From Natrinema saccharevitans (GTDB taxonomy: Archaea; Halobacteriota; Halobacteria; Halobacteriales; Natrialbaceae): a DNA stretch of 64,000 nt. The translations under genes were made by a program, and so were the position numbers. How positions within the stretch are numbered: the first letter of the stretch is position 1; each line of letters starts with the position of its first letter. The notes beneath the pieces were generated by a model. The model was not told the origin of the DNA. It ran no database searches and was given only the letters and a program-made list of their open reading frames with translations. The stretch is from the NCBI RefSeq assembly GCF_001953745.1, contig NZ_LWLN01000001.1, forward strand, positions 1,488,001 to 1,552,000. The letters run 5' to 3'. Positions 22,812-39,152 of this stretch are shown one piece after another.

Positions 22812-23786
22812 CTACTGGGACGGTCCATCGGTGGGTGGATCGGAGACCGGTGAATTGATGACCGATTTGAAGTGGTCGATCATTCGTTCGAGCCCGTCTT
22901 CGAGTTCGACCGTCGGCTCCCAGTTCAGTTCCGATCGCACTTTCGAAATATCGGGACAGCGCTTCCGTGGGTCGTGGGGTGGTAGGGGTTCGTAAACGAG
23001 GCTACTCTCGCTATCCGTCATTTCGAGTAACATTTCTGCCAATTCGAGAATCGTTCGCTCGTCCGGGTTCCCGACGTTGACCGGGGTCTGGAGGTCACTA
23101 GCGAGGAGTCGACGCAAGCCTTCGACGAGATCTGAAATGAAGCAAAAGCTTCTCGTCTGTTTCCCGTCGCCATAGACCGTCAAATCTTCGCCCGTGAGCG
23201 CCTGCCGGACGAACGTTGGGAGCACGCGACCGTCATCGATACGCATCCGTGGCCCGTATGTGTTAAATATTCTCGCAATGCGAACATCGAGGCCGTACTG
23301 CTCTTTGAAGCTCCATACTAACGATTCACCGTAGCGTTTGGATTCGTCGTAACACGCTCGTGGTCCGAACGGATCAACGCGTCCTCGATAGTCTTCGGGC
23401 TGCGGATTGACATCGGGATCACCATAGACTTCGCTTGTAGATGCAAACAGGTAGGTCGCGTCTTTCTCCAGCGCCAGTTCCAGTGTCTTTTGGGTTCCGA
23501 TCGCTCCCACCTGAAGCGTCTCGATCGGATTCTCCTGGTAGAACGCCGGAGACGCGAGACTCGCGAGGTGGATGACCCAGTCCAAATCACCGGCCACGGT
23601 GATCGACTCCGTTATGTCCTCCTTGTGGAACGAGAACCGGTCGTGGGATCGAAATCTGGATATATTTTCCTGACGGCCCGTGACAAAATTATCGAAGACG
23701 AGCAGTTCGTGTCCCTCATCGAGAAATCTTTGACAGAGGTGGGAACCGATAAAGCCCGCACCGCCGGTAATACAGACTCTATTCAT
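22812..23786 (-). CDS. NAD-dependent epimerase/dehydratase (UDP-glucuronate decarboxylase-like)
   Basis: The 324-residue extended short-chain dehydrogenase binds NAD through GGAGFIG (8-14). The catalytic residues are the Ser/Thr of FASTSEVYGD (115-123), Y146 and K150 (YDESKRYGE). The pattern FNTYGPRMRIDDGRVLPTFVRQAL is that of the UDP-xylose synthase / dTDP-glucose dehydratase group. It makes or changes an NDP-sugar donor. Two glycosyltransferases in the same island may use the product. It stands alone, divergent from the first methyltransferase gene. Confidence 0.88.
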   Translation of the reverse strand: MNRVCITGGAGFIGSHLCQRFLDEGHELLVFDNFVTGRQENISRFRSHDRFSFHKEDITESITVAGDLDWVIHLASLASPAFYQENPIETLQVGAIGTQKTLELALEKDATYLFASTSEVYGDPDVNPQPEDYRGRVDPFGPRACYDESKRYGESLVWSFKEQYGLDVRIARIFNTYGPRMRIDDGRVLPTFVRQALTGEDLTVYGDGKQTRSFCFISDLVEGLRRLLASDLQTPVNVGNPDERTILELAEMLLEMTDSESSLVYEPLPPHDPRKRCPDISKVRSELNWEPTVELEDGLERMIDHFKSVINSPVSDPPTDGPSQ

Positions 23787-24226
23787 TTTCTATACTCGTT
23801 GCTAATCAGTCGAGTTGATCGAGCGATCATGGTGCTCACTGATACCGGGGCCCGCTTGCTCTGCTTTCGTCAGCCGCTCTCGATAGACGATGCGGAAGTG
23901 ATGATTGCCGATACATCCCTGCTCTTATTATATTATTGGAGTTTTATTAACATTTCGATATTTCTAAACCGAAAGAACGACGTTGAAATACTCACAACCG
24001 GCTCACGCGGTCTATCTGCCGATCCGGACGACGTCTGCAAAAGACTACTGCGTATTCGACTGGCTACGGTCTTTTCCGACCGGTCGTGTAGAGAACGACG
24101 ACCGTTGTTCGTTCTCGAACCGGACGCTTCCGCGGGTGGATTCGTAGCGCAGGCGAGACGAAATGCTCGTCAAACCCCTCTGTTAAAATATTAATTTTTA
24201 TAACCCTTCAATTATTTTAACGCAAT
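23787..24226. other. A+T-rich intergenic region between epimerase and methyltransferase 1
   Basis: No supported gene lies in these 440 bases. An 8-bp inverted repeat (gagaacga / tcgttctc, 24091-24116) is present. The last 45 bases are the promoter of methyltransferase 1. Confidence 0.4.
24195..24203 (+). promoter_or_regulatory. TATA box for methyltransferase 1
   Basis: The sequence tttttataa lies 24-32 nt before ATG 24227. The same arrangement precedes methyltransferase 3 (ttttatatta at 33171-33180) and, more weakly, methyltransferase 2 (taaaatttt at 25944-25952). Confidence 0.6.
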
Positions 24227-24991
24227 ATGGCCGATTGGACGGAAGACGTCTTCAAAGACAAATCGAGCCTCTTCGCGGGAGTGTTAGAACGGCACGACCC
24301 TCACACGGAAGATGAGGTCGATAGAATACTTTCCACGGTTCGAGAGGAATACGGGGTAGAGCCGGAGTCGGTCCTGGACGTCGGCTGCGGACTGGGACGG
24401 CACGTGCTGGCGTTCGGTGAACGGGGGTACGAGGTCGACGGACTCGATTTCTCGCGGGAATACGTTCGAGAGGCCCGCCAGCGCGCCAGTGATCGCGACC
24501 TCGACGATCGCGTCTCGATCCACCAACACGACATGCGCAATCTCGAGGAGTGGGACGACTCCTACGACCTCACCGTGAACCTGGGGTTGACGTTCGGATA
24601 TTACGGTCGAGAAACGGATCAGGAGATTCTCTCGAACGTCTTCGACCTCCTCTCCGACGACGGCGTGTTCGCGGTCGAAATGATTAACGCCGCGGGCATC
24701 GTGAACAATTTCCAGCGAAGTCACGTAACTGAATTCGACGACGAACTCAGCGTTCAACGCCTCGAGTACGACATCGAGAAAGGGGTGTTGCACAATATCA
24801 CTGATCTATTTGCGAAGATCGAAGACGAGTATCAGTACAAGGATCGGATAGTTATGAAACATCAGCTATACTGGACTGCAGAATTCAAGCATATGTGCGA
24901 ATTAGCCGGTTTCGAATCGTTTCATATCGTTCCTCTCGATGGAGAGGAACTCACCCTCGATGTAACTTCGTATCTGCTGCTTGCTAGTTGA
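24227..24991 (+). CDS. Class I SAM-dependent methyltransferase (paralogue 1)
   Basis: The 254-residue protein has the SAM-binding motif I VLDVGCGLGRHVLAFG (49-64), the acidic end of strand 2 VDGLDFS (70-76), and motif HQHDMRNLEEWDDSYDL (99-115). It ends in a beta-rich half (TDLFAKIEDEYQYKDR...) typical of ubiquinone/biotin-type methyltransferases. Codons for residues 40-115 are almost identical in DNA to the two paralogues at 25978 and 33201, while both ends have diverged. The substrate is not known. Within the island it may tailor a sugar or peptide. Confidence 0.85.
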   Translation: MADWTEDVFKDKSSLFAGVLERHDPHTEDEVDRILSTVREEYGVEPESVLDVGCGLGRHVLAFGERGYEVDGLDFSREYVREARQRASDRDLDDRVSIHQHDMRNLEEWDDSYDLTVNLGLTFGYYGRETDQEILSNVFDLLSDDGVFAVEMINAAGIVNNFQRSHVTEFDDELSVQRLEYDIEKGVLHNITDLFAKIEDEYQYKDRIVMKHQLYWTAEFKHMCELAGFESFHIVPLDGEELTLDVTSYLLLAS

Positions 24992-25396
24992 GGTTACTTG
25001 TCCCATATAAGTCTCGATTGGAGAGTGAGCGATTTCGCTCCGAATCGTACACGGCTGCGGATCGGCCCTCTTCCCGGCTCGTCGACCGATCGGCAGTGTC
25101 GTCCTCACCGGCAGGACGTAAAGGGACTATAACGCCGGTGTCGAAGGGATTTTGTCACGCTTCCGACTCGCACTGGAGTTCGTGGGAGATCGGAAGGAAA
25201 ACCGAGTCAGGTCCGTACGCGGTAACCGCGTTACCAGCATCGGATACCGACGGGTACACTGACTGTTGATCGAGACTATCCGGTCCGTTCGGAAACCGTC
25301 ACGGACATCGTCTCCAACCCGTAGTACCCGGTCACAACAACAACAGTTATGTAGCTCAACCACAACGAATTTTTTACGTGGATCGTACACTGAGTT
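24992..25396. other. Intergenic region before the SHOCT gene
   Basis: No gene is supported in these 405 bases. A TATA-like aattttttac lies about 25 bases before ATG 25397. Confidence 0.4.
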
Positions 25397-25825
25397 ATGA
25401 GCCAGAGTGGTTCCCTCGGTCGTCTTCGCGAGAGTATAACGGAAGTCGTCGGATTTCTCTTCGCGTTTCTAATGGTATTGGGAATCGTCGTGGAGCCGTG
25501 GTTGTTCGTTCTGGGCCTTGTCGGGATGCTATTTTTGACTCCGATAGTAGCACTCCTATTTGGTGATCGAGACACGGTCGAGGAATGGTGGGGTGGAGAG
25601 AAGGCCCAACAACTAGATACTGACACCTCACAAGACGACCCACTCGAAACGCTCAAACGCCGGTATGCTGAGGGCGAACTCTCCGAAGAAGAGTTCGAAG
25701 ACAAACTCAACCGATTACTCGAATCGGAGAACGTAGATATGACGGACTTCGATGCCAACCACCGTGAGTCGATAACCGAGTTTCCTGAAGAGGATGATTC
25801 CGAGATGGAGCTAGATGAAAACTAA
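25397..25825 (+). CDS. SHOCT domain membrane protein
   Basis: The 142-residue protein has two membrane segments (about residues 15-35 and 37-54). A cytoplasmic SHOCT motif follows, DPLETLKRRYAEGELSEEEF, at about 81-100, the short helical pair common at the C-terminal side of many membrane proteins. The acidic tail is Asp/Glu-rich. The ABC transporters in haloarchaeal genomes often have such small partners, but no function is established. It lies between two paralogous methyltransferase genes. Confidence 0.75.
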   Translation: MSQSGSLGRLRESITEVVGFLFAFLMVLGIVVEPWLFVLGLVGMLFLTPIVALLFGDRDTVEEWWGGEKAQQLDTDTSQDDPLETLKRRYAEGELSEEEFEDKLNRLLESENVDMTDFDANHRESITEFPEEDDSEMELDEN

Positions 25826-25977
25826 CCCTCTTTACTGAAGTAATCACATCTGCGCAGCTATTAGCCAGTTCGTTGCCCTCGTCGCGGTCTGCCTGCGACC
25901 GCTATCCAGAACACTACTTTGGAGAATCAGAGCCCCAAACCAGTAAAATTTTGTATGTTGGAATACAATTTTCAAAT

Positions 25978-26742
25978 ATGAAAAATTGGACGGAAAGGCT
26001 TTACAAAGACAAATCGAGCCTCTTTGCTGAAGGACTCGAACGATTAGAAGGGGTAGCCGAGGACGAGATGGATATCATTCTCAACCGGGTGAAAGAGGAA
26101 TACGGGGTAGAGCCGGAGTCGGTCCTGGACATCGGCTGCGGACTGGGACGGCACGTGCTGGCGTTCGGTGAACGGGGGTACGAGGTCGACGGACTCGATT
26201 TCTCGCGGGAATACGTTCGAGAGGCCCGCCAGCGCGCCAGTGATCGCGACCTCGACGATCGCGTCTCGATCCACCAACACGACATGCGCAATCTCGAGGA
26301 GTGGGACGACTCCTATGACCTCATCGTGAACTTAGGAGTAACGTTCGGTCATTACGGTCGAGAGACGGATCAGGAGATTCTCTCGAACGTCTTCGACCTC
26401 CTCTCCGACGACGGCGTGTTCGCGGTCGAAATGATCAATAAGGCGAATCAGATCCACGACTTCGAACGAACATACGTTATAGATTACCGTGATGCTCTCA
26501 ATGTTCAGCACCTTAGATACGATATCGGAAACGGTGTTCTGCACAGTAATATCGACGTATTCTCGAGAGAAGAGGAGGAATTCGGATACCGAAATCGTAT
26601 GACCCTTAAGTATTACCTTTATTCACCTTCGGAACTCAGGTACATGTGTAAACGAGCGGGATTCGAGGACGTCACTATCGTTCCGAGAGGTGCGGAAGAA
26701 CTCACACTGGACGTGGAATCGATCGTTATACTGGCCAGTTGA
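25978..26742 (+). CDS. Class I SAM-dependent methyltransferase (paralogue 2)
   Basis: The 254-residue protein aligns end to end with paralogue 1. Motif I is VLDIGCGLGRHVLAFG at 49-64. Codons 40-115 differ from paralogue 1 at only a couple of bases, whereas residues 1-39 and 140-215 differ widely. The C-terminal block (KRAGFED, IVPRGAEELTLDVES) is instead nearly the same as in paralogue 3, so the gene is a mosaic. The start is ATG 25978, set by the alignment (MKNWTERLYKDKSSLF) and by a TATA-like taaaatttt 26-34 bases upstream. The gene overlaps the convergent glycosyltransferase by 17 bp. Confidence 0.85.
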   Translation: MKNWTERLYKDKSSLFAEGLERLEGVAEDEMDIILNRVKEEYGVEPESVLDIGCGLGRHVLAFGERGYEVDGLDFSREYVREARQRASDRDLDDRVSIHQHDMRNLEEWDDSYDLIVNLGVTFGHYGRETDQEILSNVFDLLSDDGVFAVEMINKANQIHDFERTYVIDYRDALNVQHLRYDIGNGVLHSNIDVFSREEEEFGYRNRMTLKYYLYSPSELRYMCKRAGFEDVTIVPRGAEELTLDVESIVILAS

Positions 26743-27667
26743 AGCCGGAGGGGCTCGGAAACCGGCTCTTGTAGCTCCGTAAACCGTATCTCCCGAAAAG
26801 GGAAGCGAAAACGAGTCCGTACGGCGATCCGTCGGGATTCGTGCGCACAGCTTTCCAAAAGTGTCGAACTGCGTGTGCCGACCATCGGCTCTGTTGTAGG
26901 CACTTGAGGGCACCAATTGCGTGTTTGAGTGCGAGACCCCGTTTCCTGACCGTGTCGGGGTACGCGTCGTAGAGCTCATCGTAATACTCGACAATGGCCA
27001 TTCTCGCCGCTTTGCAATCTACGGATCTGCTTAATCCGTAGCCAGATCGACTAGTAATAAGTTCTCTATCGATCGTACACACTTTGTTCGATCGAACGAG
27101 CTCTATAACCGGGACGATATCGTCGTGAGGAAAATCAGCCATCGGGAGTAACGATTCGATCGCGGACCGTTCCGCAAGCATTCCACTGATACCGTACGGA
27201 GCCGCCAGTGCTGAAAGACAGAACTCGAGGACTGTGTCGGGATCGATCGGATTCTCGCCCGTGTAGAACTCGCGAATCGCTTCTGGATCGAGAAGATCCC
27301 GCTTGCGAGCAAAGGCGACGGAACAATCTCCCGATTCGATAGCTTCCAGGAGCATTCGAATACCGTTTGCCTGTATCTCGTCGTCATCATCGAGAAACAG
27401 CACGTACCTACCGTTCGTTTTCTGAATACCTCTGTCGCGGGCAATCGCAACCTGTTCGATTTTATTATCAGTTTCGTATGAATTGATGCACGTATAATTC
27501 ACGCCGTACTCATCTGCGACGGGGCGAGCGTTCTCATTTCGTGTCATATCTACGATGTGGATGTCGATACTAACACTTTTTTGACTCACCACACTATCGA
27601 TAGTCCGATCCAATGAATTATTTCTTTTATATGTGGGTATTATAACGTTCACCGACGGCAGGCTCAT
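26726..27667 (-). CDS. Family 2 (GT-A) glycosyltransferase
   Basis: The 313-residue protein opens with the GT2 pattern VNVIIPTYKRNNSLDRTIDSV (6-26). The metal and nucleotide-sugar site is FLDDDDE at 91-97 (D93-D96). An acceptor-side region HDDIVPVIEL occurs near residue 180. It has no membrane segment. The likely role is adding a sugar, from a donor made by an enzyme such as the epimerase at 22812, to a lipid, protein or peptide. It is convergent with methyltransferase 2. Confidence 0.88.
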   Translation of the reverse strand: MSLPSVNVIIPTYKRNNSLDRTIDSVVSQKSVSIDIHIVDMTRNENARPVADEYGVNYTCINSYETDNKIEQVAIARDRGIQKTNGRYVLFLDDDDEIQANGIRMLLEAIESGDCSVAFARKRDLLDPEAIREFYTGENPIDPDTVLEFCLSALAAPYGISGMLAERSAIESLLPMADFPHDDIVPVIELVRSNKVCTIDRELITSRSGYGLSRSVDCKAARMAIVEYYDELYDAYPDTVRKRGLALKHAIGALKCLQQSRWSAHAVRHFWKAVRTNPDGSPYGLVFASLFGRYGLRSYKSRFPSPSGFNWPV

Positions 27668-28174
27668 AGTGTGATATCGATACTAGCACTCACATATTGG
27701 TTTCTATTCTGTAATACGACTTGCTTAGTGTAGTTCGACGTCCGATGACGAAAACTGGTCCGGACGTGTTACTCGGCAAACGACTCAGAGGGCGCCCTGT
27801 CCCAGTAATATAGTTGTCAGCATCCGTACTACCGAAGTACAGACCTATCTCAAGTCCGGTCTCACCGGTACTCTGGCCCGGTGATATCACTCGTAAAGAA
27901 TTGCGGTAGTCACCGGAGACCAGTTATCGCTTTTCGTGGTGGTTCTAGCATCGAGAAACCGTCATCGAACGGCCGGCCCGTCGAATCGGTCCGGAAACTC
28001 CCACGGGACGTGTTCGGGCACTCGTCCCACGAGTCGTCCCGAGAACGTACTATCGGGTGAGCGATCCGGATGGTGTCTTTCTGTCCGGTCCCTGATAGTC
28101 GTATAGCCGCGTTGATATCGAATCGCCTTCGTCACGAATTCGGCCGCTGTACGCGACCGAAGACGTGATTTGGC
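27668..28174. other. 507-bp gap between glycosyltransferase and ABC permease
   Basis: No convincing gene is seen. A 66-codon minus-strand frame (27690-27890) has no recognisable features. A 7-bp inverted repeat (tcaccgg / ccggtga) lies near 27861-27883. The region may hold decayed sequence or the promoter of the glycosyltransferase gene. Confidence 0.4.
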
Positions 28175-29893
28175 CTACTCTAATTCGTAGGTGTGAAGCC
28201 GATCGACGGCGATTCGGTACCAGATCGGAACTGAAAGCACGATTGCAACAATCATTGCCCAACTTGTTATCTCGACAATATCGTTTGAAACGGTGATAGC
28301 TAACGGCAGTAGTCTCGTGATCAGCGAAGTAGTGATCTCGAGGACCATCTCGGAATTGATGGTTGCGACTGCGATCACGATCGCCATGGAGAAGAGTGAG
28401 TAGAAGAGGTAAGCGGTCTTGCTTGGTGGGACTGCGACCGTCGACTGGCCGATTTCGGACTCTTGGAACCGGGGAAAGAGCGTTCCGATTCCGATCGACA
28501 CAACTGCTCCAATTGCGATAGCGACGACCGAAGCAACGGCAAGGACGGCTAGTTCGGACTGTGGTCGGTCTGCTACGATTCCGGTCCCGATCGCGAAGAG
28601 TACCGTTATCGGTGCGGCAGTCAACACAGCGACGATATATCCGTGGACAATCTGTCTCCCGGAGATCGGCGAAGACAACACGGCGGGTAGTGTTGCACCC
28701 TGATTACCCAACGGATTCAACGAGATTGCAGTTCCAGCAGTCCACGCACCGTACCAGACGACGGCCCAGGGTGCATACCAGGGAAGACTGCCGGTCGTAA
28801 GGAACTGTTCAGCGGCTGGGATCACGCCGAGAAGCGGTAAGGCGACGAAAACGATTTGTTTCGGTGAACGAACCAGCCGAATGAGCGTAGTACTCGCGAT
28901 TGCAAACGTTCCCTGCGAAGTACATATTCTCGCGAGGGCTGTTTCGAACTGGTGATCCGGGGGCAGGCTATCGTCGTCGGATTCAGAATCGTCAGCGGTG
29001 ATCACTAGGTCGCCGCTCCACGCGAACCGGGCAGCAGGGATCGCACAACCGATCGCAATGGCTGTCAAGAGCCCGAAAAAACCGGTCAGAAGGGGCGCCG
29101 TAATCGGCGTAGCTCCCTCACCCGCGACCGTCACCAGCGCTAAATCACCGAACCACGTAAGCGGGGGAGCAGTCAACGCCGGTTCGCCGGTTTCGATTAT
29201 CGCGTCCCAGTAACCGGTCACCGCCGTGCCGAAATAGAGACCGGTGAGCAGAAGACCGATCAACGATTTGTATCGAAGCAAGGTCTGGGAGCGACGGACG
29301 ATCCCTTTGATGATCAACCCGAGCGGATATCCCGCGGCGACTGCACTCACTACCAGTACTGGAGTCAGTACAACGAAACCTATCACGTTTTGGTACGACT
29401 CGGAGCCGACGGAGAACCCGATACCGGCTGCAACGGTGATCGGTGTCACCACTGCGAGAAACTTCACGCTAGATGAGATCACGTGAGCGAGAACGAGGTC
29501 CGGGACCGTTCTAATCGTCAGGTAATGGCTGTTGTTCGTGACGTTACTCTCCTCGTTTACACCGCTCCATACGTTCAAAATCAGTATGAAGAGGAATAAT
29601 CCGCCGAACCCTGCCCAGAACATGGACGTAATAGAACCAGTCAGTAGGTAATCCGTCCCGATTGTTTCCGAAGACGTGTACGCGACCCTGATCAGCAGAA
29701 CGTAAAAGATAGAGAGGAGCACGGAAAAGAGCAACCAGTAGTCCTGTCTGAGCATCCATCGGTATCCACGACGGATATCGACCTGTGAGAGCTCTAAACT
29801 CGCCCTCACGGAGGGAATCGACTGGTTGATCCGCTCACGTGGATCGTTAGTCGCTTCGGTACATTCTTGGACGGGCGTATTTTCTCCTACCAT
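28175..29893 (-). CDS. ABC-2 type exporter permease (large, fused form)
   Basis: The 572-residue membrane protein has about twelve helices in two halves, joined near residues 300-320 by an acidic loop (ADDSESDDDSLPPD). It is therefore like two six-helix permeases in one chain. It lacks the short motifs of importer permeases, and no binding-protein gene is present, so export is likely. The ATPase gene lies 37 bp upstream, on the same strand, forming one transporter operon. The cargo is unknown; a product of the island or self-protection are the two leading options. Confidence 0.8.
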   Translation of the reverse strand: MVGENTPVQECTEATNDPRERINQSIPSVRASLELSQVDIRRGYRWMLRQDYWLLFSVLLSIFYVLLIRVAYTSSETIGTDYLLTGSITSMFWAGFGGLFLFILILNVWSGVNEESNVTNNSHYLTIRTVPDLVLAHVISSSVKFLAVVTPITVAAGIGFSVGSESYQNVIGFVVLTPVLVVSAVAAGYPLGLIIKGIVRRSQTLLRYKSLIGLLLTGLYFGTAVTGYWDAIIETGEPALTAPPLTWFGDLALVTVAGEGATPITAPLLTGFFGLLTAIAIGCAIPAARFAWSGDLVITADDSESDDDSLPPDHQFETALARICTSQGTFAIASTTLIRLVRSPKQIVFVALPLLGVIPAAEQFLTTGSLPWYAPWAVVWYGAWTAGTAISLNPLGNQGATLPAVLSSPISGRQIVHGYIVAVLTAAPITVLFAIGTGIVADRPQSELAVLAVASVVAIAIGAVVSIGIGTLFPRFQESEIGQSTVAVPPSKTAYLFYSLFSMAIVIAVATINSEMVLEITTSLITRLLPLAITVSNDIVEITSWAMIVAIVLSVPIWYRIAVDRLHTYELE

Positions 29894-29930
29894 AGTTTAT
29901 CGAAGGTGATCGGAGTTGCTCGGTGCTAGT

Positions 29931-30713
29931 TTAAATCGCGTCTTCGTCGGAGGTTATTTCCAGAAATACAGTCTCGAGATCAGTAGCCGTACCACGCTCA
30001 GCTTGCGCTTTCAACTCGTCGACAGGTCCTTCTGCGATGAGCCGTCCGTCGCGGATGACGCCGATTTCGTCGGCGACCTTGTCGACGATTGGGAGAATAT
30101 GTGACGACAGGAACACCGTCGTATCGTCGGACGCTAACTCGTCGATAGTCTCACGCACCGTTCTAGCGGCGATCGGATCGAGACCACTCGTCGGTTCGTC
30201 GAGGAAGACGACGTCGGGATCGTGAATGATCGTGCTGATAACACCTACCTTCTTTTTCATTCCGGTCGAATACTCGCCGATTCGACGGTGTGCGTCGCTT
30301 CGCAAGTTAAATTCGGTCAGCAGTTCCTCGATCCGGTCGTCGGCGCGATCGTCGGGGATTTCGTGAAGTCTGGCGAAGTGGCGGAGTTGCTCCCATGCGT
30401 TTAACTCGTCGAAAATCGGCGGTGTGGTGGGGAGATATCCGATACGCTTAGAGAGTTTTGCTCGATCCGTGATCGAGACACCAGCAACGGTTGCGCTACC
30501 TGCGGTCGGTTGGGTGAGAGTCGTCAATATTTCCATCGTCGTAGTTTTCCCCGCACCATTCGGTCCGAGGAAACCGTACACACTGCCGGCCGGGATAGAT
30601 AGTGAGAGGTCTTCGACGGCAACTTCGTCGTCGTAGCGCTTTGTGACCCCGTAAGCAGTTATCGCGTGATCTGAATCCCGCTGAGGTGAGCGCATTTGTT
30701 GCTCATTCTCCAT
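29931..30713 (-). CDS. ABC transporter ATP-binding protein
   Basis: The 260-residue nucleotide-binding subunit has Walker A GPNGAGKT (50-57), the Q-loop region after TLTQPTAGS, signature YSTGMKKK near 140, Walker B VVFLDEPTSGLD near 160 and the switch histidine in FLSSHILP. The sequence is of the DrrA/CcmA/Nod-type exporters that pair with ABC-2 permeases. It is followed by its permease at 28175. The A+T-rich stretch upstream (about 30760-30800) probably contains the operon promoter. Confidence 0.92.
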   Translation of the reverse strand: MENEQQMRSPQRDSDHAITAYGVTKRYDDEVAVEDLSLSIPAGSVYGFLGPNGAGKTTTMEILTTLTQPTAGSATVAGVSITDRAKLSKRIGYLPTTPPIFDELNAWEQLRHFARLHEIPDDRADDRIEELLTEFNLRSDAHRRIGEYSTGMKKKVGVISTIIHDPDVVFLDEPTSGLDPIAARTVRETIDELASDDTTVFLSSHILPIVDKVADEIGVIRDGRLIAEGPVDELKAQAERGTATDLETVFLEITSDEDAI

Positions 30714-30894
30714 ATTTGCTCAGTTATTGTTGTCGTTCACACCACCATAATTGTTTCGTACTGTGTGAATATATAAATATATCGAATTATGTATGGATTT
30801 TATAAAAACAGGTTATAGACAAAACCGTCGAGGAATAGGCACCCGGGGCGTTCTGACCGGGATAGAGGGCTTCAGATCGGTTTGTCGACTCGAT

Positions 30895-31578
30895 TTATGG
30901 CGAAACGTGACGGGTCGATTCGGATGTCTCTACGAACGAACTCGAGTGCCGTTCAACTCTCGGAAATACTGAATGATACTGCGAAATGAAAAGCGGCTTA
31001 TATTCGTCAGTATTTTCACGCACTCGCATAACGAGGAACTGGACTGTATCGTTCAACTGTATGTCGCGACTTTCCCTCACGCTATGCGTGACGTAGTTCA
31101 ACAGTGAGATGTAGGGTGTCGTCAATAAGTAGCGATCCTCCTCGATTTCTTCGAGTTCTCCCCATTCTTCCTCGTCCCAGTCGTATTGCTCCGAGATACC
31201 TTCCGTTAATTTATCCGTCGTGTCGTAGAGTAATTTTGCTGTGTACATGTCCGGATTCCAGATTGGTCGGTGACCGTCATTTCGGACCTCAGTTATCTCA
31301 GAAAGAAAGTTCCAGTCTTCTACGCCACCGTCTTCTCGCTGCAATCGATAGAGCAGTTTGTAATCGTGTTGTACGGGATGCGGAGAGAAGAGATTCCAGT
31401 CCGGTACTAATCGATAGATCGGTGCGAAGTACCGCGCCGGATTGAGTCGTTCCACTTTCATCGTCTCCTCGCGCGATTCCCACGCACATTTCCAGATCGT
31501 GACTATAACGAATAATGTGGCGGTACAGCCGATTAGTCCGGTTAGTACCTCTTCGATCATCACTCCGTTTATAGTCAT
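30895..31578 (-). CDS. Second SdpA/DUF5819-like membrane-anchored protein (orphan paralogue)
   Basis: The 227-residue protein parallels the one at 19332. It has one N-terminal membrane helix (about 11-30), then PDWNLFSPHPVQHDYKLLYRL (59-79), then PIWNPDMYTAKLLYDTTDKLTEGISEQYDWDEEEW and TTPYISLLNYVTHSVRESRDI. Both proteins share W-N-[LM]-F-x-P-x-P and about the same spacing between blocks. A longer, Ser-rich C-terminal tail is specific to this copy. Unlike the first copy, no HTTM gene adjoins it. It lies upstream of the first ABC exporter on the same strand and might serve the same HTTM protein in trans. Confidence 0.6.
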   Translation of the reverse strand: MTINGVMIEEVLTGLIGCTATLFVIVTIWKCAWESREETMKVERLNPARYFAPIYRLVPDWNLFSPHPVQHDYKLLYRLQREDGGVEDWNFLSEITEVRNDGHRPIWNPDMYTAKLLYDTTDKLTEGISEQYDWDEEEWGELEEIEEDRYLLTTPYISLLNYVTHSVRESRDIQLNDTVQFLVMRVRENTDEYKPLFISQYHSVFPRVERHSSSFVETSESTRHVSP

Positions 31579-31872
31579 TACAACAGTAAATTCTTACGAT
31601 AATGTGTTTGCACTTAGGTTAATCGGCCGGGTAAATTCTGGGAGTGGTGTAGAAATAATGCTGTTCGCTAGCTGATGGTGCGATGCTCGAGGCCTCTTCG
31701 GGGGACCAAGACGTGCGAACAGATCGAATCGTTCGAACACGTCGGAGCCCTTAGCTCGTGAGTTATCCCCGCCGCGTGTATCGTTATCTCGTCCAGTTAG
31801 TCCCTTTTGACTGGGAATAGAAGGTATTTAATAAATAGAGCAAGTATGGAATATTATCGGAGAGTCAGGTTC
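31579..31872. other. Divergent promoter region between the orphan SdpA-like gene and the GT8-like gene
   Basis: No gene is seen in these 294 bases. A TATA box tttaataaat at 31827-31836 sits about 37-46 nt before ATG 31873, whereas the in-frame ATG at 31846 would lie upstream of the expected transcription start. Confidence 0.45.
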
Positions 31873-32784
31873 ATGGATCGCGGAATAACATATATCGCGT
31901 TTGGAGACGTTTATAGACAACTGGCCGTCCAGTCCGCTGAACGGATATCCGAACTGGGTGATTGGCCTATTTGTCTCATTACAAATTCGAAGACACACAT
32001 CCGAGACGAGCTCTTTAAACACATCAAGATAGTACAGCCGGAATCTGTCTGGAGAAAGCACCGGTACGGCGGCGGTATAAAACCCGAGTTCTTCGGAGAA
32101 TCGCCGTTCGAACGAACGCTCTACCTCGATACTGACACCTACGTTGTCGACGGCGATGCGATCGACGACCTGTTTGCTCTTCTCGACGAGTACGAACTAG
32201 CTGCGGCACACGACACGGTCCGAAAACTCGAACACGAGTATGGGACAGTTCCGGACACGCTCGAGACATCTCCGGACGCGTTCCCGTGGCTTAACACCGG
32301 TGTGGTTGCCTATCGGAAGTCAGATTCGGTCTTAGATTTATTCCATAAGTGGAGATGGATATATCACGTACAAAGTACACGGATCGAAGGCATCAACGAT
32401 CAGGCAGCCTTTTGTGAAGCGCTGTACTACAACGACGTCATTCACACCGTGCTCCCCCCCGAATACAACCACCGCATCTCTCACGAGCAAACGTTGACTG
32501 GAGAAGTCAAGATCCTTCACGGTCCCGCTGACGACTATCCCGCCATAGCAGACTACATCAATGAGTACGTCCGGAATCGAGCGGAGAACGTAGAATCCAT
32601 CCTCCCCTACCAATCGATCAGTTACTACGTATTCTGGAACGAGGGTCACGTTCGATCGATCCCGGTACGGTTGACGTATCCGATACGGACCGAACTGGAA
32701 TACGGACTACGTCGTGCACGCCAGCTCGCGACACAGACGAAGAACAAGGCAGCGTCCGGTATCGAAACGGTTCTTTCTCGGTGA
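31873..32784 (+). CDS. GT8-like (GT-A) glycosyltransferase
   Basis: The 303-residue protein starts MDRGITYIAFGDVYRQLAV, the usual opening of glycogenin/GT8-like enzymes. It has the metal-binding TLYLDTDTYV motif (83-91; D86 and D88), followed by WLNTGVVAYRKS near 140 and the later NDQAAFCEALYY near 175. The late histidine in KILHGPADD near 228 is consistent with the second metal ligand. A transferase using a nucleotide sugar is expected, with an unknown acceptor. The start is set by the TATA position and by the family's typical N-terminus. Confidence 0.82.
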   Translation: MDRGITYIAFGDVYRQLAVQSAERISELGDWPICLITNSKTHIRDELFKHIKIVQPESVWRKHRYGGGIKPEFFGESPFERTLYLDTDTYVVDGDAIDDLFALLDEYELAAAHDTVRKLEHEYGTVPDTLETSPDAFPWLNTGVVAYRKSDSVLDLFHKWRWIYHVQSTRIEGINDQAAFCEALYYNDVIHTVLPPEYNHRISHEQTLTGEVKILHGPADDYPAIADYINEYVRNRAENVESILPYQSISYYVFWNEGHVRSIPVRLTYPIRTELEYGLRRARQLATQTKNKAASGIETVLSR

Positions 32785-33200
32785 ACGACCCCGTTCCGTT
32801 CCACGTCGGGAACCGTGGATGTGACGTCTCCCCAGTACCATCGTCTATGACACGTTGAAATTCGCCAGTGTGGCTCCGCATCGAATTCTCGTCCGCGTCG
32901 CTGCTACTCGCTGATCGGACCCGGAGAGAATCTTCCGACGCAGAACGGGCACGACGAACCGGCAAGAGCTCCAAGGCCCGCTTCCCGGTACGCCGTCACG
33001 AGTGCGTCCACTACCGACCTCTCGGCAGTGAGTCGCTGCGCCTGGATTCCTATCGATCGACGAACCAAACAGTGTCGGGATATCCACATAGCAGCCGTGC
33101 AGGATCAAATTCCGATCAAAACCACATCCAGCGTCCCCGTGACCGTATCGAAACCGTCGATGAAGATAACTTTTATATTAAAAAACGATAATACAATCGT
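32785..33200. other. Intergenic region before methyltransferase 3
   Basis: I see no supported gene in these 416 bases. The end of the region is A+T-rich, with a good TATA box (ttttatatta at 33171-33180) 21-30 nt before ATG 33201. Confidence 0.45.
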
Positions 33201-33965
33201 ATGGGAAACTGGGTAGAGGACGTATACCTGGAAAAATCGGATCTGTTCGCCGAAGTTCTCGAACGGTATGACGACCTAGCTGGCGACGAAGTGGAGATCA
33301 TTCTCGACCGAATGAAAGAGGAATACGGGGTAGAGCCGGAGTCGGTCCTGGACGTCGGCTGCGGACTGGGACGGCACGTGCTGGCGTTCGGTAAACGGGG
33401 GTACGAGGTTGACGGATTCGATTTCTCGCGGGAATACGTCCGAGAGGCCCGCCAGCGCGCCAGTGACCGCGACCTCGACGATCGCGTCTCGATCCACCAA
33501 CACGACATGCGCAATCTCGAGGAGTGGGACGACTCCTACGACCTCATCGTGAACTTTTTCGAGACGTTCAATTATTACGGTCGAGAGACGGACCAGGTAA
33601 TTCTGTCGGACATCTTCGACCTCCTCTCCGACGACGGCGTGTTCGCGGTCGAAATGACCAACAAGTCCAACCTCATTCACGATTTTAAACGGAATTACGT
33701 TAGCGAATACGACGATAGCATCTACGTAATCCGCGTCGATTTCGATGTCGAATCAGGTATCGAAACCGTTACGAATGATGTGTTCTGGAAACGGGAGGAC
33801 GGATTCGAGTATCGGGATCGAATGGTTATGAAACATCACCTCTATTCGCCCTCGGAATTCGGTCACATGTGTAAACGAGCGGGATTCGAGGATATCACCA
33901 TCGTTCCGAGAGGTGCGGAAGAACTCACAATAGACGTAGAATCAGTCGTCATACTGGCCAGTTGA
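33201..33965 (+). CDS. Class I SAM-dependent methyltransferase (paralogue 3)
   Basis: The 254-residue protein is the third member of the set. Motif I VLDVGCGLGRHVLAFG is at 49-64. DNA for residues 40-115 differs from paralogue 1 at a few bases only (for example aaacgg for gaacgg, ttcgat for ctcgat). The start and the region 116-220 are distinct, including NFFETFNYYG in place of NLGLTFGYYG. The last 35 residues match paralogue 2 closely. The three enzymes probably bind SAM in the same way and differ in substrate. The promoter is A+T-rich. Confidence 0.85.
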   Translation: MGNWVEDVYLEKSDLFAEVLERYDDLAGDEVEIILDRMKEEYGVEPESVLDVGCGLGRHVLAFGKRGYEVDGFDFSREYVREARQRASDRDLDDRVSIHQHDMRNLEEWDDSYDLIVNFFETFNYYGRETDQVILSDIFDLLSDDGVFAVEMTNKSNLIHDFKRNYVSEYDDSIYVIRVDFDVESGIETVTNDVFWKREDGFEYRDRMVMKHHLYSPSEFGHMCKRAGFEDITIVPRGAEELTIDVESVVILAS

Positions 33966-34013
33966 ACTCCTCAAACGTCAGAACTGCGCTTGGAAATATA
34001 CTGTATCGGGCCG

Positions 34014-34880
34014 CTAGTAGTGGCTCATCACACCACGTTTACGAGCGACCCGACTGGCGTAGTAGAACACGACGAATCCGACCAAAAAGTACGCCAGCCC
34101 CGTTCCAAGAAGTATCGATAGATCGACGAGGCTGAACTCCCAAAGCGCCGTTCCATCACGCATGGCGGTTTGGAGCATCGTCGAACCCTGTGCGAGCGGA
34201 AGAACTCCGACGAGCGGTGCGTCGGTGACCGGTGCAGCGATCAACCCGATGAGAACGAACTGCATGATGCTATTGATGCTGCTGATTTTTTTGTAGACGA
34301 GCGCGAGCCCGCCGATGCCGAAACCGATTCCGATCGCCGGCATGAGCGTCAGGATTGTGATCGGGATTACCGTCCAGAAATCTACAACGAGCCATCGCTG
34401 AGTCGTTACCATCATCAACAGTAGCACGACGAATCCCCACAGGAACGCAAACAAGACGTTCACGATTGTCTTGAGGCTCATAACGGTATTGAATCCGTAC
34501 GGGGACATGAACAACTGTTCGAGCGTTCCCCACCGCGACTCCGCGGTGACGTCCTGTTGGAGGCCCATGTACGCCGTCTGGGCCATCGTCCACAAGAACC
34601 AGCCGACGATAATCCCTTCAAAGGTCTCTCCGAACCCTTCAACACCGTTGGCGACCTGATCTACGATCGCCTGTCCGCCAAAAAAGACGCCGACGAAAAA
34701 CAGGTACATTGCCACGATCTGAAACGCGAAATCGATCGGATATCGGAGCATCAACAGTAGTTCCTTTCGAACTATCTCCCTGAACAATAAGTACGACCCC
34801 GCAACCGACACCTCGTCGTTACTGCTCGCTCTATTCAGAGGTCCGCCGTCTCGATTACTGGATCGATTCGGTGAACTCAT
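34014..34880 (-). CDS. ABC-2 type transporter permease
   Basis: The 288-residue protein has six hydrophobic segments with the ABC-2 permease layout. A cytoplasmic N-terminus ends in REIVRKELLLMLRYPID (about 32-48), and the last helix is followed by YASRVARKRG. The region RWGTLEQLFMSPYG near 115 is the conserved amphipathic element of this family. Its start overlaps the ATPase stop by four bases (ATGA-type), so the two are coupled. It is expected to export a lipid, polysaccharide or peptide; the cargo is not known. Confidence 0.9.
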   Translation of the reverse strand: MSSPNRSSNRDGGPLNRASSNDEVSVAGSYLLFREIVRKELLLMLRYPIDFAFQIVAMYLFFVGVFFGGQAIVDQVANGVEGFGETFEGIIVGWFLWTMAQTAYMGLQQDVTAESRWGTLEQLFMSPYGFNTVMSLKTIVNVLFAFLWGFVVLLLMMVTTQRWLVVDFWTVIPITILTLMPAIGIGFGIGGLALVYKKISSINSIMQFVLIGLIAAPVTDAPLVGVLPLAQGSTMLQTAMRDGTALWEFSLVDLSILLGTGLAYFLVGFVVFYYASRVARKRGVMSHY

Positions 34881-35938
34881 TCGTGGGACCTCCTCCCGGA
34901 GGAAGCGATCGATTGATCCGTTTCGGTCGCCGATCGTCGATCGTCGCTATTCTCAGTCAATGATAGAAAAACCTCTTCCAGATTCGTGTCGACGGTTTCG
35001 ATAGTTTCGATCGAAAGGTCCGCGTTCCGGAGCAAGTCGATCAGATCGTAGAACTCGTTGCTGGCGACTGTCACCCGGAACTGCATTCCTTTCGACCCGT
35101 GAGGTTTGAACCCGTCGGCATCGAACTTTCCCTCGAGATCGGTACGTATGTCAGAACACTCGCCATCGACGGTAATCTCGTACCGCGTCTTTTCGAAAAG
35201 GTGAACGAGATTGTCGACTGTGTCGTCGGCGATGATCTCACCGTCGTTCATAATAATGGCCCGATCGCAGACCTCCTCGATAACGTCCATATCGTGACTG
35301 GACACGAGGACCGTCGTATTCTCCCGCTCAACGAGTTTCTTGAGTACGTCTTGAAGTTCGAGTTTACTTTCGATGTCGAGTCCGAGAGTCGGTTCGTCGA
35401 GAAATAGAAAGTCTGCGTTTCGAGCGAGAGCACATGCGAGAGTGACCTTTTGTTTCTGTCCGCGTGATAATTCTCGAACGACGGTGTCGGCTTTGTCGCT
35501 AATATCGAACTGTTCGAGCAACTCTTCGTGACGCGCCTGGCGTTCTCGAGGATTGTTTCCGGCGAGCGCAGCGAAGAAGTCGAGGTTCTCCTCGACAGTT
35601 AACCGCCAGTACATGTTTCTCGCACCCTCGAATGTTCCCCCGATATGTTGATACGCCGTTTTCGGATCTTCTAGAACGTCGATGTCACCGATACGGACCG
35701 TACCCTCGGTCGGGACGATGAGTCCGAGGATACACTTGATAGTCGTCGTCTTACCCGCTCCGTTCGGTCCGAGAATTCCGACGGCTGTCCCCCTTTCGAG
35801 ATCAAAGTTTATTCCTTTGATCGCTTCGACGCCCTCGTCACCATACTGTTTCAACAAGTTCCGTACTGTGACAAATGAATCTTCCGCCTGATCAGTCTTT
35901 TCTCCACGTTTATGGATTTTCACAGCGGAATTGGCCAT
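34877..35938 (-). CDS. ABC transporter ATP-binding protein with C-terminal extension
   Basis: The 353-residue ATPase has Walker A GPNGAGKT (57-64), signature LSRGQKQKV near 165, Walker B FLFLDEPTLGLD near 183 and switch histidine VLVSSHDMD. After the ATPase core (ending near 255) comes about 100 residues with a beta-rich extension (YEITVDGECSDIR... FRVTVASNEFYDLIDLL), as in DrrA-like and gliding-type exporters. The ATG at 35938 is chosen over the far upstream open frame because an A+T-rich TATA region (near 35963) sits about 25 bases before it. Confidence 0.92.
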   Translation of the reverse strand: MANSAVKIHKRGEKTDQAEDSFVTVRNLLKQYGDEGVEAIKGINFDLERGTAVGILGPNGAGKTTTIKCILGLIVPTEGTVRIGDIDVLEDPKTAYQHIGGTFEGARNMYWRLTVEENLDFFAALAGNNPRERQARHEELLEQFDISDKADTVVRELSRGQKQKVTLACALARNADFLFLDEPTLGLDIESKLELQDVLKKLVERENTTVLVSSHDMDVIEEVCDRAIIMNDGEIIADDTVDNLVHLFEKTRYEITVDGECSDIRTDLEGKFDADGFKPHGSKGMQFRVTVASNEFYDLIDLLRNADLSIETIETVDTNLEEVFLSLTENSDDRRSATETDQSIASSGRRSHE

Positions 35939-36293
35939 ATTATATGTCTGCCCATCCCTTATTTTATTATTTCGGTTTGGAACTGTAGTATATTCCGTTC
36001 GACGGCGGTCCTGTCGGTCGTATATGGAGCGTACTCCCGTGTTCGATCGCATCCTCGAAGCGTTCCGGCGAGAGACGACCCAACTCCCGAAGGTCTCGAG
36101 TTCGAAGCGGTTGAGATCACGCCGGACTGGTCCGGTAAGCGTATCGGACTCGTCGAAGATCGAAACGTATCGGACCCGTAGAAAACCACATACTGTAGGT
36201 TTCGGATCGAGGGCCAATTCGACTGCGTATACAACGAGCAAGCGCAACGCAGTTGCCCGAACGGAGCAACCCACGGGTACGATCCCGGGGCGG
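35939..36293. other. Intergenic region upstream of the second ABC operon
   Basis: These 355 bases carry the minus-strand promoter of the ABC operon (TATA-like aaataataaaata near 35960). I see nothing else in them that I can support. Confidence 0.4.
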
Positions 36294-37358
36294 TCATTCG
36301 GCGCTTCGTCGCCGTACCTGAAGCCAGAAACTCGACGGCAATCCATGCGGATTCAGGTCGTACGCGTGTCGAAGTTCGCCGTAGTTCTCGATAGCTTTCG
36401 CGAGGCGGTCGGAATAGTCCCTGTGCATGAAATAGCTCGTCCAGAGCACCTCGTAGCGAGAATTTCCGAGCATCAATCCGTAGAGTAAGTATTGTTCGTT
36501 GAAGAACAATCTCCAGTCTTTTATCCACGTTTCGGGATACTCGTACGGGAGAAACACGTCGTGAAGGTGAACGAGTACTCCGTCTTCGAGACGAGGAAGC
36601 ACTTCAAGGTATTCGTAGACGACGTCGCTTCCGATCTTGACAACGTGAGTGCTGTCAATAAAAAGAATATCATCCTCCCTCAGTGATTTGAAAAAGTCGA
36701 GCGGAATGTCCTGGACTTTCATTTCCAGGATCGAAACAGACGAGATTCCCTCTAAACGTCGACTAGGGAACGGATCTATGACGATGTGTTCACTGTCAGT
36801 TTCGTTTTGTTCTCGAGCCGCTTCGATTACTTTGGTCGAATATCCGCCTCCGATTTCGATGATTCGATTCGGTGATCGATCGCGTACAATCGAGTATGCG
36901 ATCTCTGCGTCAATCGTCTCGAAAAACAGATTCCTACTGTAGTATCCATCGTATTCCTCGCTCGGAGGAACGATCGGGAACTGATCGTACTCTTCTTTGT
37001 ACTGGGATTCGAACTCGGAAAACCGCGTTAATTGTGACGACGCGTCGATCTCCATATCAGCAAAAATTTCCGACGGACCATCCCAGAGATCAGTGTCGAG
37101 CGTATCAATCTGCGGAATTGGCGAGTAATAGTCGCCAGTTTCTTCTATGTGTACACCCATATTCCGCCAAAAATCGTACGCGTCCTCGGAGAATAACGCT
37201 GGAATTGTGGCCGCCAATGCTGCTGGTTTTCCGCCGTGTCTCAGTACATGCCGGAGTCCGTCCGCGATTTCCGGAAAATCCTGTTCTAATTTCGTTACGA
37301 TATCGCGGAGCTGTTCGTCCGTTAACTCGTCGCTTTCCCAGAGGTTTAAACCTGTCAT
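36294..37358 (-). CDS. Class I SAM-dependent methyltransferase (type unrelated to the other three)
   Basis: The 354-residue protein has a long N-terminal region of about 150 residues. A class I SAM fold follows, with motif I RIIEIGGGYSTKVIEAA near 168 and acidic motif VIDPFPS near 195. Later come FIDSTHVVKIGSDV and LVHLHDVFLPYEYP, where the Asp/His pairs resemble the metal-assisted methyltransferases acting on sugars or glycans (for example the macrocin and cephalosporin-hydroxylase groups). It does not share the core of the three paralogues. It is transcribed in the same direction as the candidate precursor at 37631, 272 bp downstream of it. Confidence 0.8.
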   Translation of the reverse strand: MTGLNLWESDELTDEQLRDIVTKLEQDFPEIADGLRHVLRHGGKPAALAATIPALFSEDAYDFWRNMGVHIEETGDYYSPIPQIDTLDTDLWDGPSEIFADMEIDASSQLTRFSEFESQYKEEYDQFPIVPPSEEYDGYYSRNLFFETIDAEIAYSIVRDRSPNRIIEIGGGYSTKVIEAAREQNETDSEHIVIDPFPSRRLEGISSVSILEMKVQDIPLDFFKSLREDDILFIDSTHVVKIGSDVVYEYLEVLPRLEDGVLVHLHDVFLPYEYPETWIKDWRLFFNEQYLLYGLMLGNSRYEVLWTSYFMHRDYSDRLAKAIENYGELRHAYDLNPHGLPSSFWLQVRRRSAE

Positions 37359-37630
37359 AAACGCCGGTATACATTGTTTTTATCTGGTTGTCTTAACTTC
37401 TCCGGTGGTGGAAATAACGAGTGGCGAAAATCGCACAAAGCGATCCGGATCAAACTAGAAATCGCCCGTACCAACCGTTACGGTGAATCGAAAGCGCCCG
37501 CGGTCGCGAGTCAAGCACGCGTCGATAGAAAGAGACGAATCAGTTGGGATATTGGTACGCGAAAAATGTGCCGTTTCTCAGTGAATCGAGACTGATTTCC
37601 GTATCAGTCCGATGTTACACTACTCCCCGC
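37359..37630. other. Intergenic region between methyltransferase and candidate precursor
   Basis: The minus strand carries a TATA-like tttttat near 37376-37384 for the methyltransferase gene. No other feature is supported in these 272 bases. Confidence 0.35.
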
Positions 37631-38179
37631 TCAGTTCTTCACTTCCATCAGTTCCTCGAGGGAGGGATTCGACGAGAGCGAATCGAAGTCCTCCTCGTCG
37701 ACCGTGGAGAGCGCTTCGCTCGGTTTGTCCGACCCCGTCGTGTATTCTGCGACGGCGAGTGCCAGCGCGAAGGCGGCTTTGCATCCGGGCGGACACAGCG
37801 TGGGCTCTTGGGCGAGTTCGTATTCGGCCTCGGCGGGAACTGCTTCTTGGGCGTCTCGTTCGGCATCAGACGCGACGTCCGCTTCCTCACCGCTTTCGGA
37901 AACCGACGTTCGGGTTTCTTTTAGTTCCTCGATTGAGGGAGTCTCACTGGAGAGTTCCACGTCCGGCATCGAATCGACTTCGTCCTTGACCCGGCCGCCT
38001 TCGTTTCCGTCGTTAGCCAGGGTCGTCGCGGCGTATCCTGCGGCAGCATAGGCGACATATGCGCAAACCTTCTTGCATGCCTGTGGAGTATTGGAGACGC
38101 CGCTTTCTTCTCGATCCGTGGGGATCGCTTTGTTCGCCTGTTCAACCACGGTGGGATTTTCTTGTTTTGATCCCGACAT
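37631..38179 (-). CDS. Two-module CxxxC protein, candidate exported-peptide precursor
   Basis: The 182-residue acidic protein is built of two tandem modules. Module 1 has C35-K-K-V-C39, an Ala/Tyr-rich hydrophobic stretch (40-55), an acidic spacer and PSIEELKETR (81-90). Module 2 has C129-P-P-G-C133, an Ala/Leu-rich stretch (134-147), an acidic spacer and PSLEELMEVKN (172-182). The two pairs of Cys-to-PS[IL]EEL distances differ by only three residues. No signal peptide or enzyme motif is present. The PS[IL]EEL[KM]E motif looks like the recognition helices of RiPP leaders, but it follows the Cys segment here. ATG 38179 is supported by a TATA box 25-35 bases upstream. I do not recognise the family; precursor function is an inference from composition and context. 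Confidence 0.7.
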   Translation of the reverse strand: MSGSKQENPTVVEQANKAIPTDREESGVSNTPQACKKVCAYVAYAAAGYAATTLANDGNEGGRVKDEVDSMPDVELSSETPSIEELKETRTSVSESGEEADVASDAERDAQEAVPAEAEYELAQEPTLCPPGCKAAFALALAVAEYTTGSDKPSEALSTVDEEDFDSLSSNPSLEELMEVKN

Positions 38180-38546
38180 GCATCTCAAATCAATATACCA
38201 GATAAGAATAAAACTAACCATGTGGACTAAATTAGAAGCATTCTTGTAGGAGGTGTCGGGGAGAAGAGAGGGGATTCGAATTCACGAGCAACTGGGATAC
38301 GTGGTATCATCGTCTCGTCGGTGGTGGTGTCTCGGTTACGGTGATTCGAGCGTTTCCTCTCGAACTCAGGGGGCCGTCCCCATCTGCCTGTCGCGTAGCG
38401 ACCTGACTGTCGTGTTGGAGCCGATCGCTGTCGAATCAGTGTTTTCCCGGAGATGTGGACCGGTCGATCCGTCGTCGTCGGTCGATAGACTGATTCGATG
38501 CGGTGATGAACACCGATCCGGAGACGTTCGAGACGAGGGTATATCG
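38180..38546. other. Right junction of the island
   Basis: These 367 bases hold the leaderless promoter of the candidate precursor (aagaataaaa on the plus strand at 38204-38213) and the change back to G+C-rich sequence. No tRNA or clear attachment site is seen. An open frame runs through the region into the next gene, but it lacks coding character before ATG 38547. Confidence 0.5.
38204..38213 (-). promoter_or_regulatory. TATA box for the candidate precursor gene
   Basis: On the minus strand ttttattctt lies about 25-34 nt before ATG 38179. It points to a leaderless message and rules out the upstream in-frame start. Confidence 0.6.
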
Positions 38547-39152
38547 ATGAGCGATCCAGATCGACTCACTGCCGACATCGACACCGACGAACTCCCCGCC
38601 GAGGTCGTCGAGGAGGCCGAACGGCTCACGCGCACCGCGCGTGAGACGCCCGACGAAAACGAAGCGCAGGCCCACAGGGAGCGCCGCGAGGACCTGCTCG
38701 CCGACCACGCGTTCACGTCGCGAATCCGGGACGACGAGGGAGACGACGTCCTCGTGTTACACCCCGAGGAGTGGCACGACGAGGACGCGGGCGTCATCAG
38801 AACCGATCGGATCGACGACCTCTCGCGGGCGGTCGAGATTCCGCTCGAGGGGACCGAAGACCCCGACGACTGGGCGGCCGTCGACGATCGAAACCGGGAC
38901 CTCGTCGCCGCAGTCAGGGAGGCTCACGGCGACGTTCACGGGGACAACGCGGCGCTACTGGCGGACTTCGCGGGCAACCACTACGCGAAGCCGATCGCGT
39001 CGCTGACCGCCGACGAACTCGCGGAGTTCCGGGAGGAGTACCTCGTCAGGAACGCCTGGCCGTCCGAAAAACAACGGGAAGCGATCGCGGAGTCGATCGA
39101 ACTCGTCTTCGAGGCCGCCGGTGAATCGGCCCCGACCGTCGACTCTCAGTAG
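38547..39152 (+). CDS. 'rnhA operon protein' (DUF7108-like)
   Basis: The 201-residue acidic protein matches the haloarchaeal family annotated as 'rnhA operon protein'. Shared marks from memory are LPAEVVEEAERLTRTAR near the start, DVLVLHPEEW, RTDRIDDLSRAVEIPL, HGDVHGDNAALLADFAGNHYAKP, and a late EEYLVRNAWPSEKQR. The function is unknown; elsewhere it directly follows rnhA. Here rnhA ends at 18992, so the two are separated by about 19.5 kb, which dates the island as a later insertion. The ATG at 38547 begins the conserved region. It overlaps the convergent PadR gene by seven bases. Confidence 0.8.
   Translation: MSDPDRLTADIDTDELPAEVVEEAERLTRTARETPDENEAQAHRERREDLLADHAFTSRIRDDEGDDVLVLHPEEWHDEDAGVIRTDRIDDLSRAVEIPLEGTEDPDDWAAVDDRNRDLVAAVREAHGDVHGDNAALLADFAGNHYAKPIASLTADELAEFREEYLVRNAWPSEKQREAIAESIELVFEAAGESAPTVDSQ

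Follow-up and report, generated by a model that had tools for sequence, protein, structure and literature searches.

Archaea have yielded few peptide antibiotics so far, mostly through bioassays. In a 64,000-nucleotide stretch of the genome of the haloarchaeon Natrinema saccharevitans (contig NZ_LWLN01000001.1, positions 1,488,001 to 1,552,000; hereafter, the window), a minus-strand gene running from an ATG at 38179 to a stop at 37631 encodes a 182-amino acid (aa) protein at the right end of an inserted island. What is this protein for? The original prediction, made from the sequence, had read it as a peptide precursor that may be cut into two related peptides. We put the probability at about 0.83 that it is a tandem two-core precursor of secreted hydrophobic peptides resembling SDP or linaridins, matured by an SdpA/SdpB-like pair and tailoring enzymes and exported by ATP-binding cassette (ABC) transporters; the class of the gene and its precursor role are well supported.

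Two repeated modules in a protein without known domains

The protein contains two successive units of the same layout, namely, C35-KKV-C39 followed by an Ala-rich stretch (residues about 40-55), an acidic spacer, and PSIEEL (81-86), and then C129-PPG-C133 with its own Ala-rich stretch (about 134-148), acidic spacer, and PSLEEL (172-177). Local alignment of residues 1-91 with residues 92-182 scored 64, compared with 30±5.4 for shuffled sequences, 1 of 2000 of which scored as high. The two halves are a genuine repeat, and the predicted two-module CxxxC layout is real. Signal peptide and enzyme motifs are missing, as had also been claimed: Pfam and NCBIfam scans of the protein returned zero matches at E<=1, with no enzyme domain, and the 182-aa form has no N-terminal hydrophobic segment, its hydropathy maxima falling at residues 37-38 and 127-136. 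An alternative upstream ATG at 38221 would give a 196-aa form, but we favor the start at 38179 because the homologues described below begin with MTGD.., MSVE.., and MVEE... A TATA-like TTTTATT about 28-34 nt 5' of this ATG fits the proposed leaderless promoter without proving it. The AlphaFold2 model has helices at the leader, core, and tail of each module and no fold (mean predicted local distance difference test score, pLDDT, 49.5), as expected for a precursor. This model and that of the Methyltransf_24-type enzyme of the island (MT24; pLDDT 55.6) were too poor for fold searches, and searches of solved structures gave a chance match only for the profile of the precursor family and no match for MT24.

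A probable precursor family with conserved flanks and variable cores

Single-sequence searches of genomes from the host's family returned mostly low-complexity acidic matches, and only three, all from Natronorubrum texcoconense (genome G107, NZ_FNFE01000002.1), were real. These are single-module homologues of 92, 108, and 109 aa (locus L024, at 10360, 10830, and 18763), which share LCP[PH]xC, an Ala/Gly-rich core, and an ASI[ED][ED][LI] tail. Homologues of window genes sit between and around them, including MT24 (45% identity), SdpA (38%), SdpB (40%), an ABC pair (45-46%), a methyltransferase (40%), a family 2 glycosyltransferase (GT2; 39-40%), and a 572-aa membrane protein (33%). Because the Natronorubrum homologues are single-module proteins with homologous neighbors, the window protein corresponds to two single-module precursors in one chain, and two separate peptide products from the 182-aa chain are plausible. 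A simple coding artefact was ruled out, given that the homologues are conserved at the protein level.

Further members were found near SdpA- and SdpB-like genes. Genome G392 (locus L039) encodes a 120-aa protein of the same layout, with an SSAEELLSAHK tail and no cysteines, 2.8 kb from SdpA; the SdpB neighborhood L058 contains SdpA and two proteins of about 100 aa; and other SdpB neighborhoods contain long forms of 238-312 aa with a similar ending, '...ERDA..P......hydrophobic......ASVEELLDAR'. The long forms (L060 13232-15067, L062 11357-12073, L066 11048-11986, and L115 3634-4410), present in haloarchaea and Rhodococcus, have a conserved N-terminal domain and no family-database match. Short and long forms recognize each other in reciprocal profile searches (best E ~2e-6 for 4000 sequences), and the relatives extend over archaea of several families and at least one bacterium. 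Three elements are conserved across the family: a segment resembling AERDAxExVP, a hydrophobic core rich in Ala, Gly, and Val, and the tail S-x-x-E-L-x-x-A-R at the C-terminus. Within alignment A5, every sequence has Ala at W2 position 19, and the tail residues S82 and L86 are almost invariant. Of all the parts, the tail is conserved most widely, which supports the earlier proposal of a recognition element placed after each core. The C-x3-C motifs are present in both modules as predicted, but cysteines, and hence the predicted disulfide, are not family-wide, being confined to the window and Natronorubrum cores apart from scattered single ones. In the short class, the core starts with P-x-[LVA]-[CYAS]-[PK] (PTLCP, PMLCP, PVLCP, PDVYP, PTVAP, and PQACK, with STISP as an exception), which is reminiscent of the PxxxTP cleavage motif of linaridins (PMC9927463), a lead and not homology.

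Homologues of the window protein have zero NCBIfam matches at E<=1, and the family is nameless in the protein databases searched. A tblastn search of plasmids with the precursor found nothing. Weak matches of profile A1 in genomes G155, G186, and G207 proved to be unrelated or antisense frames.

The acidic, soluble-looking flanks and the lack of a signal peptide would also suit a non-precursor role on the island, as an adaptor or immunity protein inside the cell or associated with the membrane. We regard such a role as very improbable, given the absence of a fold and the occurrence of short paralogues in several copies, whose flanks are conserved and whose cores diverge, a pattern typical of precursors and not of immunity proteins.

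Co-occurrence with an SdpA/SdpB-like pair

The link to SdpA and SdpB was no part of the original prediction. Among 392 genomes of the order, 12 carry SdpB-like genes (E<1e-40), and the 11 genomes with strong matches to the joint precursor profile (E<1e-13) all fall within these 12 and all carry a co-localized SdpA/SdpB(HTTM)-like pair (hypergeometric p 1.6e-20, a partly circular figure, since most profile rows come from SdpB neighborhoods). The first precursor profile, which used no SdpB information, had weak matches (E ~1e-3) in genomes G027 and G028 that turned out to lie 2.8-3.1 kb from SdpB genes. Conversely, a blind profile of nine SdpAB-linked proteins, none of them from the window, Natronorubrum, or G392, has module 2 as its sole significant match in the 4-Mb genome of the window (next match, E 0.23). 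The MT24 gene is found in 3 of the 392 genomes (the window's, G107, and G392), each time with SdpAB and a short precursor; in G392 it occurs together with SdpA, SdpB, GT2, and an ABC exporter, and a scan of genome contigs with MT24 matched only N. texcoconense. Precursor, modifying enzymes, and export genes are co-conserved in other genomes, as in ribosomally synthesized and post-translationally modified peptide (RiPP) systems in the broad sense.

Several observations weigh against a precursor matured by this pair. The window gene lies 16.9 kb from SdpB, albeit on the same island, compared with 0.6-4.9 kb in the other genomes; some of the sequences in the family model came from SdpB neighborhoods, hence the circularity mentioned above; and L039, L058, and most long forms lack cysteines. 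The SdpA/SdpB assignment itself is remote: the SdpB-like protein matches TIGR04033 with 30 bits against a cut-off of 178, which would place it in the same superfamily as export_SdpB but not among its curated members, and the SdpA-like neighbor, conserved in all loci and in Actinobacteria, has a weak DUF5819 match and no SdpA model match. No leader peptidase was recognized on the island except for oligoendopeptidase F (PepF; gene at 20757), and PepF is not shared by the other loci.

The pair in other peptide clusters

Both sdpA and sdpB are required for SDP maturation (PMC13343845), and SdpC homologues combine a conserved body with a variable C-terminal hydrophobic core or domain (PMC6818787); weak sdpABC homologues have been described in Brevibacterium (PMC5719810). 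HTTM proteins, one of which is encoded in the window cluster, are a standard feature of linaridin clusters, where their mechanism is unclear (PMC9927463). No mention of DUF5819 was found in the literature searched. In Streptomyces, a homologue of the window SdpB/HTTM-type protein scores above the Pfam HTTM cut-off; together with an SdpA-like protein, HTTM homologues adjoin a lantibiotic dehydratase (LanB) and LanC and, in other loci, short hydrophobic peptides weakly matching linaridin models, a methyltransferase, and an ABC transporter. The twelfth SdpB genome (G406), Haloplanus sp. GDY1, carries SdpA-SdpB on plasmid unnamed2 (NZ_CP098516.1) next to an amidase, an M28 peptidase, a methyltransferase, a SagB/ThcOx dehydrogenase, YcaO, and a leader-binding protein of thiazole/oxazole-modified microcins (TOMM; L118 2591-10820), which, to judge from these genes, is an archaeal YcaO peptide cluster. 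In Rhodococcus sp. DMU1, precursor, SdpA, and SdpB stand in a row, the 258-aa precursor being matched by the archaeal long-form profile (E 5e-15) and SdpA by the archaeal SdpA-like profile (E 2e-21). Collectively, single-module multicopy homologues, co-occurrence with SdpAB only, and the presence of the pair beside LanB/LanC, linaridin-like, and YcaO clusters strongly support the peptide-precursor reading. These findings also suggest that the HTTM/SdpA-like pair, which has no clear role so far in the pathways of SDP or of linaridins, acts as a peptide-maturation module of general use.

A proposed route from precursor to peptide

In the scheme we propose, the gene comprises two head-to-tail copies of a family whose other members are single short proteins or C-terminal parts of longer ones. 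Each module runs from an AERDAxExVP-like pre-core through a hydrophobic Ala/Gly/Val-rich core of ~20 residues and an acidic spacer to a putative recognition tail at its C-terminus, S-[IL]-E-E-L-x-E-x-[KR]. Island enzymes would dock on the tail and on the AERDAxExVP segment, and the methyltransferases and glycosyltransferase would modify the core, the candidate tailors being MT24 and GT2, whose conservation is restricted to loci of the short class. The SdpA/SdpB(HTTM)-like pair would perform at the membrane the maturation step that it carries out in bacterial SDP and RiPP clusters. Once the flanks are removed, one or two small, probably membrane-active peptides would be released via the ABC transporters and may act antagonistically; one ABC system may give the producer self-protection. 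Within the window and Natronorubrum subset, the core probably opens with a small loop closed by a disulfide between the two cysteines.

The presence of several precursor paralogues in a single locus would fit a signaling peptide (pheromone) as well, matured and exported by SdpAB and the ABC transporters and read by a cell-surface system. We consider this unlikely, because antagonism is indicated by the hydrophobic cores, the two ABC systems, the SDP and linaridin clusters in whose company the maturation pair occurs, and the mobile island, whose site in a sister genome is occupied by a LanM-type gene. A rival concerning only the chemistry, and not the precursor role, has chances slightly short of even: the product would be an extensively modified RiPP, methylated and glycosylated and perhaps similar to linaridins, and not a simple SDP-like disulfide peptide. 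The restriction of MT24 and GT2 to the short precursor class, the three further methyltransferases on the island, the linaridin-like peptides that accompany the same pair in Streptomyces, and the resemblance of the pre-core P-x-L-C-P to the linaridin cleavage motif speak for such a product; on the other side, neither LinL nor a decarboxylase nor any known RiPP recognition enzyme was identified, and GT2 and the methyltransferases may serve surface glycans, given that an epimerase and another transferase-like gene are also on the island.

The tandem precursor with its SdpA/SdpB-like pair might, more tentatively, belong to a new class of peptide natural products common to haloarchaea and Actinobacteria and not described in the sources searched. 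Such a class would have an internal hydrophobic core between an AERDA-type leader and a C-terminal S-x-x-E-L-x-x-A-R follower, and its maturation by the SdpA/HTTM pair would be common to SDP, linaridins, lanthipeptides, and YcaO peptides. In the window, two precursors would be fused and methylated or glycosylated to yield a two-component secreted peptide.

The island and its genes

Across 18-38 kb of the window, the GC content drops to about 0.50-0.57. In the sister genomes G065, G066, and G061, window position 18982 and positions about 38569-38604 are only about 150-170 bp apart, so that about 19.6 kb is absent; this confirms that the precursor gene lies at the right end of the island (Table 1). 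At the same site, which is rnhA-adjacent, sister genome G062 (L109 10124-11278) carries a different insert, in which ABC genes and a methyltransferase-like fragment accompany a DUF4135 (LanM-type) gene (E 1.3e-77), indicating that the site is a hotspot taking up peptide clusters. As side observations, the three island S-adenosylmethionine (SAM) methyltransferase paralogues weakly resemble the daptide methyltransferase, and PepF could degrade leader or follower pieces.

Table 1. Precursor gene, its parts, and the other features of the island (window coordinates)
Feature	Position	Strand	Basis
Tandem precursor gene, 182 aa, two modules	37631..38179	-	Open reading frame, repeat score, blind profile match
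Module 1 (residues 1-91)	37907..38179	-	A5 match, E 5.7e-19 (module 1 itself in model); aligns with single-module homologues
Module 2 (residues 92-182)	37634..37906	-	Profile of SdpAB-linked proteins from other genomes, E 1.8e-4
Module 1 pre-core motif VVEQANKAIP (residues 11-20)	38120..38149	-	15-segment alignment
Module 2 pre-core motif DAERDAQEAVP (residues 105-115)	37835..37867	-	15-segment alignment
Predicted core 1, C35-x3-C39 and Ala-rich helix (residues 35-56)	38012..38077	-	Sequence; low-confidence AlphaFold2 helix 31-55; boundaries inferred
Predicted core 2, C129-x3-C133 and Ala-rich helix (residues 129-148)	37736..37795	-	Sequence; low-confidence AlphaFold2 helix 130-146; boundaries inferred
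Module 1 tail PSIEELKETR (residues 81-90)	37910..37939	-	Family-wide tail conservation, S and L nearly invariant
Module 2 tail PSLEELMEVK (residues 172-181)	37637..37666	-	Family-wide tail conservation, S and L nearly invariant
Inserted island	18983..38600	.	Empty site in sister genomes; GC about 0.52 vs about 0.65
SdpA-like protein (DUF5819-like)	19332..19937	+	Pfam E 0.0072, under cut-off; archaeal SdpA-like profile finds bacterial partners, E 1e-13 to 1e-21
SdpB-like HTTM membrane protein	19930..20733	+	TIGR04033 export_SdpB, E 3e-7, under family cut-off
PepF	20757-22610		Directly after sdpB, in this island only
SAM methyltransferase, first of three paralogues	24227..24991	+	Pfam; locus comparison
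SAM methyltransferase paralogue	25873..26742	+	Locus comparison
GT2, co-conserved with short precursor class	26726..27667	-	Locus comparison
Membrane protein, likely ABC permease	28175..29893	-	Homologues beside SdpAB in 6 other loci; no Pfam match
ABC ATPase, likely exporter or immunity	29931..30713	-	53-57% identical partners beside SdpAB, three loci
Second SdpA-like protein, without own SdpB	30895..31578	-	Pfam scan; locus comparison
SAM methyltransferase paralogue	33201..33965	+	N. texcoconense homologue; locus comparison
ABC-2 permease	34014..34880	-	Locus comparison
ABC ATPase, DrrA-like	34877..36346	-	NCBIfam; homologous part is the C-terminal 343 aa
MT24, co-conserved with short precursor class	36294..37358	-	Pfam E 3.6e-10

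Comparison with known systems

An archaeal precursor family with an SDP/linaridin-type maturation pair, missing from the family databases searched, is now defined and directly testable in haloarchaea, and the tandem precursor is a natural system for testing follower-tail recognition. Like the proposed product of this gene, the halocins (HalC8, HalH4, and HalS8) are haloarchaeal peptides cut from larger precursors; they differ in that those described are secreted precursors activated by proteolysis (PMC12893001). Daptides resemble the family in having several hydrophobic precursors per locus, as in the loci of the relatives, and in their methyltransferase, to which an island enzyme is weakly similar (E 1e-13, under cut-off). 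The window cores are not C-terminal, unlike those of daptides, and membership was ruled out, no MpaB/C/D-type genes being seen.

Linaridins (cypemycin, legonaridin, and corynaridin) share with the island an HTTM protein with an SdpA-like neighbor, short hydrophobic precursors, a methyltransferase, an ABC transporter, and, where leader and core are predicted to meet, a proline-rich motif. In contrast to linaridins, the window core is flanked by a C-terminal tail and contains few Thr. Neither the window protein nor its homologues match the linaridin models of NCBIfam at E<=1, and no LinL, decarboxylase, or hydrolase partner was recognized among the island genes, with no LinL model compared.

The remaining comparison is with SdpABC/YitPOM of Bacillus subtilis, which make the SDP and YIT peptides; SDP has two cysteines and a tail that is removed. 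The window protein is not a member of the SdpC family, TIGR04032 having its sole match in the whole genome at an unrelated place (E 0.25), and it differs further in the lack of a Sec signal peptide and in carrying two cores per chain. The island, in an archaeal host, adds methyltransferases and a glycosyltransferase, and no sdpI or sdpR was identified. What the two systems have in common is a precursor accompanied by a membrane pair that, on the island, resembles SdpA and SdpB remotely, a core formed by an internal hydrophobic segment, and cores that vary between conserved flanks.
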